Shown here in pieces: positions 52,746-57,412 of a DNA stretch of 64,000 nt; the first letter of the stretch is position 1, and the number at the start of each line of letters is the position of its first letter. Below the pieces are notes generated by a model. The model saw nothing but the letters and a program-made list of their open reading frames with translations. It was not told the origin of the DNA and ran no database searches. The DNA is taken from contig JAAYLX010000027.1 in NCBI GenBank assembly GCA_012521705.1, positions 1 to 64,000 of the forward strand. Direction: 5' to 3'. The position numbers were made by a program, and so were the translations under genes. This DNA comes from Clostridiaceae bacterium. GTDB lineage: Bacteria; Bacillota; Clostridia; DSM-8532.

Positions 52746-53957
52746 TTATTTTATATAGTTCCGAAGAAAATCTGCAAATTCCTGGGAAATTTCATATCTC
52801 GAAATAAATCCGATATTTCTGTAATAATAAGTGTCGAAAAATACTCCGCTCTGGTTATAGATCCTTATGCCAACCGGATTGTCAAGAGCATCTGTACCTG
52901 CGCCCTGACTGGGAGCAACTTGACCAACTCCGGTATTTGGAACTGTATCCCCCATATCAACCATACCGCTATCTGATGAGACCGGTGTATCGCCTGATGA
53001 ATACTCTTCCCGTTTAAGCGGCATATCATCTGCTGTTTCTGCTGTCTGTGCTTCAGGCAATATGGGCGGTACATACTTGACAGGATCAACTGCGTCCGGA
53101 GCTGTTTCAGGAGGCGGTGCCACATCCGGTGCCTGAATGTCAACTTCCACATCCCTGCCGGATACCACACCGGGCCTCTGGTTAAACAGACGTTCAAAAT
53201 ACTTGTCGCTTGAATTCTTCAATACCGAATAGAAATTATAGAAGCGTGTAATATCGTTCAGATCAGTAATTTCTCCACTTATATCCAGTCTTCCTTCAAG
53301 TTTGCTCTGTTCGGAATAAACTATAAACTGTATTTTGGCAATATCCTCAGCCTTATTGATCCCGTATAGTTTCAGGTATTCAATTGCGTCCTCATCCTGA
53401 TTGTTATTGTAGCTTTCAAATGAAAGAAACTGGAATAACAGATACGAATCATCCTTTTTGACTGCAACCACCGCTTCGCATCCGGCAGGCTTGTAGCCGT
53501 ATACCTCACGGCCAATAAGGCTTTGATCGGCGGCTTTGGTGATGGTTGCAAGTTTTTCCCCGATATCATTTTCATCTATTCGGGCAGGGAATCCAAATTC
53601 CGATCTCATTTCATCAGACATAAGGTAGTAATGCCTGTTGTTAAAAGTAAACTCATTGAGAAGTGGAGCTGCCATGTCCTCCCTTGCGTCAGAATCGGTC
53701 ACTAAACCAGGCTCCGCTAAGCCAGGCTGTGAAGTATTTGCATTTTCTCTCTGAAACAAGGGAGAAGTTTTATAAAATAAAATGCTGACCGCCATTACAA
53801 CAACCATGGTAAGCGCAGGAACAACTTTTCTGAAATTAAATCTCGCCATTGTTTTCTCCTTCCCAGTATGACTCAGAATATTGTCAAGCATCCGACTTTT
53901 TGCATATTCATCGGGCATAATTTTATCAAAGGATGCATTAAGCTCTTCTCTTTTCAC
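52746..53957 (-). CDS. Membrane-anchored partner of the ECF sigma factor (putative anti-sigma)
   Basis: 403 residues. A short cytoplasmic N-terminus (MKREELNASFDKIMPDEYAKSRM), one membrane helix at about 44-64, and a large extracytoplasmic part whose C-terminal third is rich in Pro, Ala, Asp and Thr, like a wall-spanning linker. The start overlaps the sigma gene by four bases (ATGA). Topology and coupling suggest an anti-sigma factor, though no ZAS zinc motif is present, and the cytoplasmic region looks more like the RsgI/DUF4179 style. Confidence 0.72.
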   Translation of the reverse strand: MKREELNASFDKIMPDEYAKSRMLDNILSHTGKEKTMARFNFRKVVPALTMVVVMAVSILFYKTSPLFQRENANTSQPGLAEPGLVTDSDAREDMAAPLLNEFTFNNRHYYLMSDEMRSEFGFPARIDENDIGEKLATITKAADQSLIGREVYGYKPAGCEAVVAVKKDDSYLLFQFLSFESYNNNQDEDAIEYLKLYGINKAEDIAKIQFIVYSEQSKLEGRLDISGEITDLNDITRFYNFYSVLKNSSDKYFERLFNQRPGVVSGRDVEVDIQAPDVAPPPETAPDAVDPVKYVPPILPEAQTAETADDMPLKREEYSSGDTPVSSDSGMVDMGDTVPNTGVGQVAPSQGAGTDALDNPVGIRIYNQSGVFFDTYYYRNIGFISRYEISQEFADFLRNYIK

Positions 53958-54445
53958 TCTAAATCACCCTCCATTTCCATTTTTAATAGTTTTCTTCCCT
54001 TATGGAGCAAGCTTCGTACAGTGGAATGGTTTTTCCTGAGTATTCCCGCAATCTCGGCAGTACTGTAACCTTCATAATAGTAAAGGTATATGGGAGTTTT
54101 ATATTTCGGGGGAAGAGCCAATACTTTTTCCATATTACTGTCTATATCAAATTTCTGCACAAAGCCAACATCTTTAGCCTGTTCAATGCCAACTGTTTTG
54201 GACCACCAGTTTCTGAAATGATCCTTGCACAGGTTTGTCGCAGTCCGAATCAACCAGGCCTTTTCATGTTCCTCATTTTGAAAAACAGTTCCGTCCCTCA
54301 TAAGCCGAAGAAATGTATTTTGCACCATATCCTCGGTATCATGCTGGTTTTTCATGTACATGAAGCAAACCCTGTACACCGTATTTACGTGCCGGTTATA
54401 AATCTGAGTAAGCTCTTCATCCGTACGCAATAAAGAACTCTTCAA
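53954..54445 (-). CDS. ECF-type RNA polymerase sigma factor
   Basis: 163 residues from a TTG codon seven bases after GGGGG; the longer frame has no ribosome-binding site. Region 2 (IYNRHVNTVYRVCFMYMKN, DTEDMVQNTFLRLMR) and region 4 (KYKTPIYLYYYEGYSTAEIAGIL, STVRSLLHKGRKLL) are clear. Small sigma factors of this kind answer envelope or extracytoplasmic signals, held by the membrane partner encoded downstream. Confidence 0.93.
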   Translation of the reverse strand: MKSSLLRTDEELTQIYNRHVNTVYRVCFMYMKNQHDTEDMVQNTFLRLMRDGTVFQNEEHEKAWLIRTATNLCKDHFRNWWSKTVGIEQAKDVGFVQKFDIDSNMEKVLALPPKYKTPIYLYYYEGYSTAEIAGILRKNHSTVRSLLHKGRKLLKMEMEGDLE

Positions 54446-54806
54446 TTTACTTCCCCCTTTCATATTGAATACGATTGAAGCGGCCAAAATGTTGAGGGAT
54501 ATATAAAAAATTTTATAAGATTTCATTATATACTTATACCCTTTATAAATTGCTGAAATAAGCTGACTTTCAGAGAATAACATAAAAACTTAACAATTGC
54601 AGAAAAAAACAAGAAAATTATAACAATCGCAGAGGAGGAACACGGGGAAGAAAATAATTATAATTCCATGGAGAAGCAAAGATAACAAGTGCTGCTCAAT
54701 CTTATTGAACAACCGACCAATTATTCGGCCAAATAAGAAAATAAAAAACCCTGAAAACTTAAACAGCTTTCAGGATTTTTATCTTGGCATCCCGTACATA
54801 TATATC
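54446..54806. other. Intergenic region between sigG and the ECF sigma gene
   Basis: 360 bp, very AT-rich. Holds the sigG terminator at 54743-54783 and presumably the promoter of the ECF sigma unit; nothing else recognised. Confidence 0.5.
54743..54783 (-). terminator. Terminator after sigG
   Basis: TCCTGAAAGC and a matching TTTTCAGGG arm, then six T residues on the minus strand. Located about 25 bp past the sigG stop. Confidence 0.8.
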
Positions 54807-55574
54807 TCATACATACTTTTGCATGTGTTTCAATGCCGACTTTTCAAGCCTTGATACCTGTGCCTGGGAGATTCCGATTTCATCTGCCACTTCCATCTGG
54901 GTCCTGCCCTGGAAAAATCTCAGGTCCACAATTTTCTTCTCCCGTTCTGAAAGTTTGCTCATGGCTTCGCTTATAGAAATACTTTCAAGCCATTTTTCAT
55001 CGCTGTTTTTTTCGTCCTTTACCTGGTCCATTACATAAATTGCGTCCCCACCGTCATGATAAACCGATTCGAACAATGAAATGGGATCCTGTATAGCGTC
55101 AAGAGCCATTACCACATCCTCTTTTGACATACCTATCTCTTTGGCAATATCATTGACGCTGGGTTCTCTTGATTCCTTGCCCACAAGTTTGTCTCTTGCC
55201 TGCAGTGCTTTATATGCCGTATCCTTCAGGGATCTGGATACACGTATCGGGTTGTTGTCCCGTAAATATCTTCTTATTTCACCAATTATCATTGGAACCG
55301 CATAAGTGGAGAATTTGACATTATGGCTAAGATCAAAATTATCTATTGCTTTAATGAGTCCTATACAACCCACCTGAAAAAGATCATCAGCGTTTTCTCC
55401 TCTGTTTCCGAATCTCTGGATCACACTCAAAACCAACCGGAGATTCCCCTGAATGAACTCTTCCCTTGCCGCCTTGTCCCCCTTTTTGATTCTCTTGAAA
55501 AGTTCATCCATTTTACTGCTTGAAAGTAATGGTAGACGTGATGTATTGACACCGCAAATCTCAACCTTGTTCAT
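54807..55574 (-). CDS. sigG: Sporulation sigma factor SigG
   Basis: 255 residues, forespore-specific late sigma factor. The N-terminal MNKVEICGVNTSRLPLL is typical of sigma-G; region 2 (DDLFQVGCIGLIKAIDNFDL), region 3 and region 4 (GRTQMEVADEIGISQAQVSRLE) follow. It lies downstream of sigE as in Bacillus and clostridia. The ribosome-binding site GAGAGGTG is 12 bases from the ATG, unusually far, and can be paired in a hairpin. Confidence 0.97.
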   Translation of the reverse strand: MNKVEICGVNTSRLPLLSSSKMDELFKRIKKGDKAAREEFIQGNLRLVLSVIQRFGNRGENADDLFQVGCIGLIKAIDNFDLSHNVKFSTYAVPMIIGEIRRYLRDNNPIRVSRSLKDTAYKALQARDKLVGKESREPSVNDIAKEIGMSKEDVVMALDAIQDPISLFESVYHDGGDAIYVMDQVKDEKNSDEKWLESISISEAMSKLSEREKKIVDLRFFQGRTQMEVADEIGISQAQVSRLEKSALKHMQKYV

Positions 55575-55582
55575 AAAAAATC

Positions 55583-55647
55583 AACACACCTCTCTTTGAC
55601 CGCTGCAGGAATGTCACTGTTAACATTCTTGTCTGAGGAGGTGTGTT
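55583..55647 (-). promoter_or_regulatory. Leader hairpin that can sequester the sigG ribosome-binding site
   Basis: AACACACCTC (55638-55647 on the minus strand) is complementary to GAGGTGTGTT (55583-55592), which contains the sigG Shine-Dalgarno. A second hairpin GAATGT/ACATTC (55609-55628) is nested in the loop. In read-through transcripts from sigE the site would be masked; a transcript starting inside the loop would be free. Confidence 0.7.
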
Positions 55648-55748
55648 TTATTCTGAATTTTATTCTGAAAATATTTTGAAAAGGCCTTGACAAGCGGGTT
55701 TCCCTTCGCACGTCTTGATCAGAGAACTTAAGGAATATTATGGTAAAA

Positions 55749-56456
55749 TCATAACATTCGTACTATTTCACGCTTTAATCTTCCCAAAATACGTTTTTCC
55801 AACCGGGAAATATATGACTGTGATATTCCAAGCATATCGGCCACTTCTTTTTGCGTTTTTTCAAGGTGGTTATTTAGACCAAACCGCAATTCCATGATGC
55901 GCTTTTCCCTGCCGCTCAGTTTATTCATCGCGCTGATAAGAAGTTTTCTGTCGGTTTCTTCTTCCAGATTTCTCTGGATAATATCACTGTCAGTACCCAG
56001 AATATCGGACAGAAGCAGTTCATTGCCATCCCAGTCAACATTCAGAGGCTCTTCAAACGATACTTCGGTCCTTGACCGGCTGTTTTTCCTCAGATACATA
56101 AGAATCTCATTTTCAATGCATCTTGAAGCATAGGTGGCAAGTTTGATATTCCTTCCGGGGTTATATGTATTGATTGCCTTGATAAGTCCAATGGTACCAA
56201 TTGAGGTCAAATCTTCTATATCAACACCGGTATTTTCAAATTTTCTCGCAATATATACCACAAGTCTCAGATTTCTTTCTATCAATATTCTCTTTACAGA
56301 CATATCTCCATTTTCCAAATCCTCAAGCAAGGCCGCTTCTTCTTCCGGAGGCAGGGGCGGAGGCAAAATATCATTTCCTCCTATATAGTAAACTTCATTT
56401 TCTCCCTGCTCATTATTCATAAGTGTGATAATGAAACCAAATACTTTCTTAAACAT
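55749..56456 (-). CDS. sigE: Sporulation sigma factor SigE (pro-form)
   Basis: 235 residues from the ATG seven bases after AAGGAG. An N-terminal hydrophobic pro-sequence region ([26 protein letters not shown]) precedes region 2 ([20 protein letters not shown]) and region 4 ([21 protein letters not shown]). Made as an inactive precursor, cut by SpoIIGA encoded directly upstream, and active in the mother cell. Confidence 0.97.
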
Positions 56457-56509
56457 ATTTACTCTCCTTCCAGGCATGTCATGTAAAACAAAGTTTATAT
56501 AGAATAGTT

Positions 56510-57412
56510 TTATATTTTAGGTATCATCGCAGGACCAAGAAGCGCCGAATACTTTGAATTGTGGGACAGCTTGGTGCTGCAGATACCAACAATTACATCA
56601 TTAATTTCTTTGAAAGTTCCCTCCTGGCACACCCGGACATTGTCCGGTCTGAAACCAGTCAACAGGCCGTTTTCACTTCCGATTGACTTAAACGGTATAA
56701 GGTGCAGGCGTTTAAGCCATGGTTCATATTTCTTGTTCATAGAACCTGAAAAAGTACCTATTTTGTTTGTCACAACCGAGTCATAAACCTCGGGAGGGAG
56801 TATTTCTTTCACAGTCTCTGCCTCCACCACCATGACCGGATAACCTGTTATGGGGTCCACCAAAGAGTTTCCTGTATCAATAAGGGCATTGAATCTTACT
56901 GTTTTCTCTCCAAGTCTTACAAGAACAGGTATTATGGAGCCTTCCCGCAACACCTTGCCCGACAGAATTCTCCCAATCGGCCTAATAAGGACAATACACA
57001 GCCCCACTGAGAACATAAACGCTTTAAGCGTTCCCTGAGGGCTCACATACATTAAACCTCCATAAGTTATAACCCCACCTTCGAAAATGTTTGACAGACC
57101 ATATGTACAACCTGCCAACAGAAAAGCTGTCAGCAGCATCATCCCCCACCGTTTCAGAAACTCAGAAAAATTCCTGATTTTAAATGCAATCAGAACCATC
57201 AATACTGAAACAACAATCTTAATCATGATTGATGACAGTACTGTAATTTCAGGAAATACCGTAGCAATTACCGCATAAATTGCTCCCAAGGCTGCTGCCA
57301 ACAGAACCCTGTGGATCTTGACACTGCATCCGGATATAATGCTGGCAAGTTTTAAAATAAGGCAATTAGCCAGGGCATTCTCAATAAATAACAGGTCTGC
57401 GTAGACAACCAC
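56510..57412 (-). CDS. spoIIGA: Sigma-E processing peptidase SpoIIGA
   Basis: 300 residues. About five membrane helices in residues 1-155 and a C-terminal aspartic-protease-like domain with the catalytic [18 protein letters not shown]. It cleaves pro-sigma-E after signalling from the forespore. Starts at GTG, seven bases after AAGGGAG. It leads the spoIIGA-sigE-sigG cluster, with 53 bases to sigE. Confidence 0.96.

Follow-up and report, generated by a model that had tools for sequence, protein, structure and literature searches.

What might keep sigG from being translated out of RNA that enters it from the operon upstream? The question is raised by a stretch of 64,000 nt from a Clostridiaceae bacterium (contig JAAYLX010000027.1, positions 1 to 64,000; hereafter the window), in which three genes follow one another on the minus strand in the order spoIIGA (56513-57412), sigE (55749-56477) and sigG (54807-55574). 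sigG lies directly downstream of spoIIGA-sigE, and the gap between sigE and sigG measures 174 nt. The gene names given in an initial annotation of the window hold, as all three products match NCBIfam equivalog models above the cut-off: TIGR02854 for SpoIIGA (213.6 bits against 209.55), TIGR02835 for SigE (397 against 348.6) and TIGR02850 for SigG (474 against 457). The presumed source of read-through RNA is sigE: a spoIIGA-sigE-sigG transcript is reported in B. subtilis and C. acetobutylicum (PMC3789822), and read-through from sigE into sigG presumably occurs in this bacterium. Downstream of sigG, the region 52746-54583 of the same strand holds a gene for an ECF-type sigma factor, whose only match above cut-off is to the general sigma70-ECF model, and an overlapping ORF of 403 aa with no NCBIfam match, which perhaps encodes the partner of this factor.

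A helix over the sigG ribosome-binding site

The sequence in front of sigG folds into two nested hairpins. The minimum free energy fold of positions 55655-55575 (81 nt, minus strand) reaches -26.6 kcal/mol (z -4.2), and 1 of 200 dinucleotide shuffles folds equally well; a context of 209 nt gives the same fold (z -3.3, 0/200 shuffles). The outer helix comprises 10 uninterrupted pairs between AACACACCUC (upstream arm, 55647-55638) and GAGGUGUGUU (55592-55583), with two further pairs beyond a bulge. The downstream arm, GAGGTGTGTT (located by fold and promoter scan), holds the Shine-Dalgarno sequence (SD) GAGGTG (55592-55587) entirely within the 10-pair helix, 12 nt from the ATG at 55574. The enclosed inner hairpin (55609-55628, pairing 55628-55621 with 55616-55609) is unremarkable in the window when taken alone (z -0.9). 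The 10-pair helix over GAGGTG and the second hairpin inside it, both proposed in the initial annotation, are thus confirmed by folding and shuffling. The window has 51 non-overlapping ORFs of 150 aa or more, with start codons picked by script; of these, sigG has the SD region that pairs most strongly with the sequence upstream of it (-18.5 kcal/mol), closely followed by two ORFs with TTG and GTG starts (-18.2 and -17.2 kcal/mol). Between 54000 and 57000, no match to an Rfam family attains the gathering score.

A scan with the sigma-F/sigma-G promoter consensus places a predicted promoter of this type, GAATA-N15-GACAAGAATG, within the helix structure. Its -35 element GAATA (55649-55653) gives a pattern score of 20.0 against 14.6 for the next best position; the 15-nt spacer AAACACACCTCCTCA (55634-55648) carries the anti-SD arm, and the -10 element GACAAGAATG (55624-55633) covers 5 of the 8 nt of the 5' arm of the inner hairpin. 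The upstream arm of the outer helix therefore lies within the -35/-10 spacer of this predicted PsigG, and the duplex between spacer and SD region has an energy of -18.2 kcal/mol, matched by none of 500 shuffles. The pattern weights, a simple score, combine the consensus with tuning on the loci themselves; scores of at least 18 are reached by 158 of 171 sigG loci against 34 of 855 shuffled stretches. Transcription from PsigG would be expected to start 6-8 nt past the -10 element, at 55616-55618. The start inside the loop envisaged by the initial annotation is compatible with this position, as judged by promoter pattern.

By prediction, the 5' arms of the helices precede the PsigG start. Since the arms sit in the spacer and over the -10 element, RNA from the predicted promoter should lack both of them, and only RNA reading through from sigE could fold. 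In the mechanism we propose, read-through RNA from the spoIIG promoter would reach sigG outside the forespore; RNA of the spoIIGA-sigE operon would carry both arms, fold and hide the SD, and sigG would stay silent in it because the helix hides the SD. Forespore RNA would begin at PsigG, past the spacer and the -10 element; free of the 5' arms, its SD would be more open and would be translated. The promoter would encode its own read-through silencer, and synthesis of sigma-G would become conditional on forespore transcription. From sequence and folding models we consider it highly probable that an anti-SD strand in the promoter spacer silences sigG in sigE read-through RNA and that PsigG RNA escapes. 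The modelled helix would be expected to lower sigG translation, and its value presumably lies in timing rather than, for example, in the exclusion of sigma-G from the mother cell.

Conservation of the pairing among relatives

A search of 32 genomes of the family yielded 25 complete sigG loci from six genera. Left out of the loci as a whole, within the family and beyond, were rows from genomes already represented (L039-L041, same genomes as L011, L013 and L016), a truncated sigG (L033), paralogue loci (L002-L008 and L034-L037), a locus of only 185 bases with no promoter match (L189), and ten loci whose sigG N-terminus was unmatched by the script (L049, L083, L091, L096, L099, L104, L110, L116, L148 and L192). 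Pairing with the SD is kept in 25/25 family loci, with duplex energies of -13.5 to -24.8 kcal/mol and shuffle p of at most 0.042. The arms exist in two sequence versions: ACACACCTC/GAGGTGTGT in genera g1 and g7, and GGCACCTCC with GGAGGTGTC or GGTGCC in genera g2, g3, g4 and g6. The initial annotation had proposed looking for compensatory changes in the sigE-sigG spacers of relatives, and such covariation is present at several pairs. Across the 25 loci, pair -3 is A-U in 15, U-A in 6 and unpaired in 4; pair -2 is C-G in 14, G-C in 8, U-G in 1 and unpaired in 2; pair -1 is A-U in 15, G-U in 7 and G-C in 3; pair +5 is C-G in 13, U-G in 7, U-A in 2 and unpaired in 3. These four pairs show changes on both sides, some of which may go back to a single change when the two groups diverged. 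Standard pairs occupy 210 of 225 cells across nine columns, which are the best ones in a register set by hand with L019 shifted by one.

In all 25 family loci, exposing the SD is predicted to cost more in read-through RNA (median 11.4 kcal/mol) than in PsigG RNA (4.0 kcal/mol) or after reversal of the spacer (5.2 kcal/mol). Conservation is weaker for the inner hairpin than for the outer helix: the folding z of the inner hairpin is -1.5 or lower in 17/25 loci and near or above zero in L013, L015, L024, L029 and L031. The distance from the -10 element to the start codon ranges across the family from 31 to 128 nt.

In two species of one genus, sigE and sigG are parted by other genes, by about 9 kb in genome G001 (L198, surroundings of L010) and about 7 kb in genome G002 (L199, surroundings of L011). 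The nine ORFs scanned comprise an O-antigen ligase, a polysaccharide pyruvyl transferase, an FrhB-type protein and an opposite-strand glycosyltransferase adjoining sigG in L198, and a TRAP-transporter DctM, a sodium-solute symporter, AtuA, a GntR regulator and one ORF with no match in L199. The sigG promoter, an upstream conserved block (see below) and the helix are all retained in L010 and L011 despite the separation from sigE, with SD opening costs of 10.5 and 6.7 kcal/mol in a genus range of 5.7-17.3. Taken as natural knock-outs of read-through, the two loci are uninformative: the helix persists within the genus range, and therefore they do not show a dependence on adjacent sigE.

The conserved block, approximately TGTCAAGG-NN-TTTT-NN-AAATATTTTCA, lies at 55665-55692 of the window on the minus strand. 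It lies upstream of the sigG -35 element, at a distance of 39-41 nt from the first base of that element in 35 of the 36 TGTCAAGG-bearing loci among 171 scanned, and of 50 nt in the exception, L119. The carriers are the 25 family loci and L038, L044, L119, L123, L125, L129, L135, L142, L152, L157 and L158. In a selection of 18 genomes whose sigG carries the block or is close, 13 contain a strict version of it exactly once, in front of sigG. The block may be the binding site of a dedicated sigG regulator. For the TTGTCAAGG motif, the matches listed from the open-access literature include no paper related by title.

Masks and terminators across Clostridia

The relation between the SD mask and transcription terminators was examined in two sets of loci outside the family. 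The discovery set consists of named genomes together with L038 (56 of 70 loci usable). The hypothesis of a link arose from this set, after which a class sample was taken from other clostridial genera, one locus per genus, and scored with the same functions (79 loci, 61 usable). Loci with no adjacent sigE or a promoter score below 18 were dropped (14/70 in the non-family discovery set, 15/76 in the class sample). The class sample is biased towards sigG proteins of at least 70% identity because only the best matches among the 254 genomes with a match entered it. Masks were called at a shuffle p of 0.05 and terminators, between sigE and PsigG, at -9 kcal/mol, with simple pattern scores for promoters and terminators; as the cut-offs were applied once the class scores were visible, the class sample is separate but not blind.

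Masks are concentrated at loci that carry no terminator. In the discovery set, 15/43 loci without a terminator are masked against 0/13 with one (p 0.012); the class sample gives 33/51 against 1/10 (Fisher p 0.0033). These Fisher tests ignore relatedness, and only five families supply the terminator loci of the class sample; averaging within family and state gives a one-sided p of 0.015, again with five families on the terminator side. With two loci identical to members of the discovery set removed, the class counts are 32/50 and 1/9 (p 0.0074), and the median duplex energies are -13.8 without and -3.4 with a terminator. If a mask is also required to have a duplex of -10 kcal/mol or lower, the proportions become 31/51 against 0/10 in the class sample and 14/43 against 0/13 in the discovery set. 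The alternation is stable in both sets at terminator cut-offs from -6 to -10, and the discovery result loses significance at -12 and -14. Free of cut-offs, terminator and duplex energies are inversely correlated in both sets (Spearman -0.41, p 0.0016, and -0.44, p 0.0005). Terminator and mask are scored together in two family loci, L009 and L025; the terminator-scoring hairpin of L009 overlaps the conserved TGTCAAGG block.

Spacers also match the SD regions of their own loci. When spacers are swapped among species in 96 loci free of terminators (both sets and one locus per family genus), the own spacer pairs with a mean of -12.5 kcal/mol against -8.7 for swapped ones (z -14.9, 0/5000 permutations), whereas in 22 terminator loci the difference is z -1.3 (512/5000). 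One locus per family, drawn 40 times from 28 families, gives z of -8.4 to -10.3. The initial annotation had read the helix as a conserved device that masks the ribosome-binding site specifically in read-through RNA; the covariation and the matching of own spacers across 28 families (z about -9) support this view.

In L076, L183, L187 and L190, which represent Romboutsia (L076) and the class-sample family f53, the helix runs through the -35 element and its upstream flank, pairing AAAGTAT with ATACTTT. The arm overlaps the -35 element in all four loci, which a test limited to the spacer overlooks or scores too low; on shuffle p, L076 and L187 are still called masked despite a spacer duplex of only -3.5 kcal/mol. 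Because Romboutsia pairs via its -35 element, we introduced a wider-arm test, in which the arm begins 25 nt before the -35 and ends with the -10 element, a post hoc test defined on seeing L076. The wider-arm duplexes of the four loci lie between -14.7 and -17.9 kcal/mol. By this post hoc measure, 40/51 class loci without a terminator pass against 1/10 with one, 19/43 against 1/13 in the discovery set, and 20/23, not all, in the family. At least one of the two mask tests is passed by 2/10 class and 1/13 discovery loci with a terminator; neither a spacer nor a wider-arm mask is found in 6/51 class and 18/43 discovery loci free of terminators. In Paenibacillus, none of 8 usable loci passes the spacer test, and 5 of 7 loci without a terminator pass the wider one, largely through the -10 element.

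To judge from these sequence comparisons, many relatives seem either to retain the helix or to rely on a terminator in its place, and the two look like alternative ways of insulating sigG. The silencer is usually absent where sigE has a strong terminator, as expected if its role is to insulate sigG from sigE read-through.

Alternative readings and relation to known systems

The complementarity could serve other ends. The outer helix and the T-run behind it (55580-55575) resemble an intrinsic terminator, which would stop read-through while PsigG RNA, devoid of the upstream arm, escapes. The window has GATTTTTT (T6) after the stem, and L014, L020, L022 and L023 have T5. The longest T-run between SD and start, however, is 3 or shorter in 13/25 family loci, and L026, L028 and L030 keep the helix with T-runs of 1, 1 and 2. 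Because the T-run is not conserved alongside the stem, this interpretation was set aside as improbable. It is slightly harder still to credit that the helix is a constant brake on sigG translation, in the manner of the small B. subtilis leader hairpin, with no specificity for read-through. The predicted PsigG RNAs do retain some SD structure (the median opening cost of 4.0 kcal/mol), but the predicted start lies downstream of both 5' arms, which would be absent from PsigG RNA if the promoter is right, and constant damping does not predict an association with absent terminators. Least probable of all is that the complementarity is a DNA operator, an inverted repeat bound by a regulator, or the product of chance. 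The arms do form an inverted repeat, and the SD core alone favours matches of the CCTCC type; against an operator or chance, the -10-to-start distance spans 31 to 128 nt among family loci and pairing persists while the arm sequences change, and the shuffles and permutations argue against chance.

The preferred reading, a mask confined to read-through RNA, follows a logic that is already known, as a proposal for B. subtilis sigG (PMC5942855) and in documented form for phage T4 gene e (PMC3014915). In B. subtilis, a helix is proposed to block translation of RNA reading through from PspoIIG and cannot form in PsigG RNA (PMC5942855). As there, sigG in the window follows sigE; B. subtilis has a forespore promoter for sigG in the gap, and the window has a strong pattern match to one. 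The B. subtilis helix is described with at least 20 base pairs against 10-12 here (PMC5942855); the mask in the window is shorter and is placed in the promoter spacer. B. subtilis sigG also has a 5-bp leader hairpin at the ribosome-binding site, which shares SD sequestration with the helix described here but lies inside PsigG RNA (PMC5942855). The 5' arms in the window precede the predicted start, so that PsigG RNA would not contain both arms, and the helix was not classed as a leader hairpin of this kind. In T4, the long early RNA of the lysozyme gene e hides the ribosome-binding site, and RNA from the late promoter, free of the 5' strand, is translated; in T4 relatives the late promoter lies within the region encoding the 5' strand (PMC3014915). 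The masking logic is the same, but gene e is a phage gene under other regulators, and the likeness is offered as an analogy only.

In the available text of PMC5942855, the survey of Clostridia deals with promoter spacing, start codon and a small leader hairpin. An earlier paper on C. acetobutylicum reported that no sigma-F promoter was predicted between the two genes (PMC2530871). The open-access literature searched showed no clostridial sigE-sigG read-through hairpin; neither the placement of such a mask in the promoter spacer, nor its recurrence across the class, nor its alternation with terminators was found there, and the word hairpin is absent from the main text of three C. difficile papers.

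We consider it somewhat probable that in spore-forming Clostridia and some Bacilli sigG must stay untranslated from sigE read-through, and that a terminator and an anti-SD strand in PsigG, located in the -35/-10 spacer or in the -35 element and its flank, are interchangeable and repeatedly re-invented means to this end. The B. subtilis proposal would thereby turn into a rule with a prediction: a mask is unneeded where a terminator follows sigE and needed where none does. If this is true, the promoter spacer of a developmental sigma factor gene is under selection as RNA that is present only in the wrong transcript. This suggests that a promoter spacer can carry an RNA regulatory code, which is relevant to moving or redesigning promoters. 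It would also explain why, in Clostridia, sigG-containing RNA that appears early need not imply early sigma-G.
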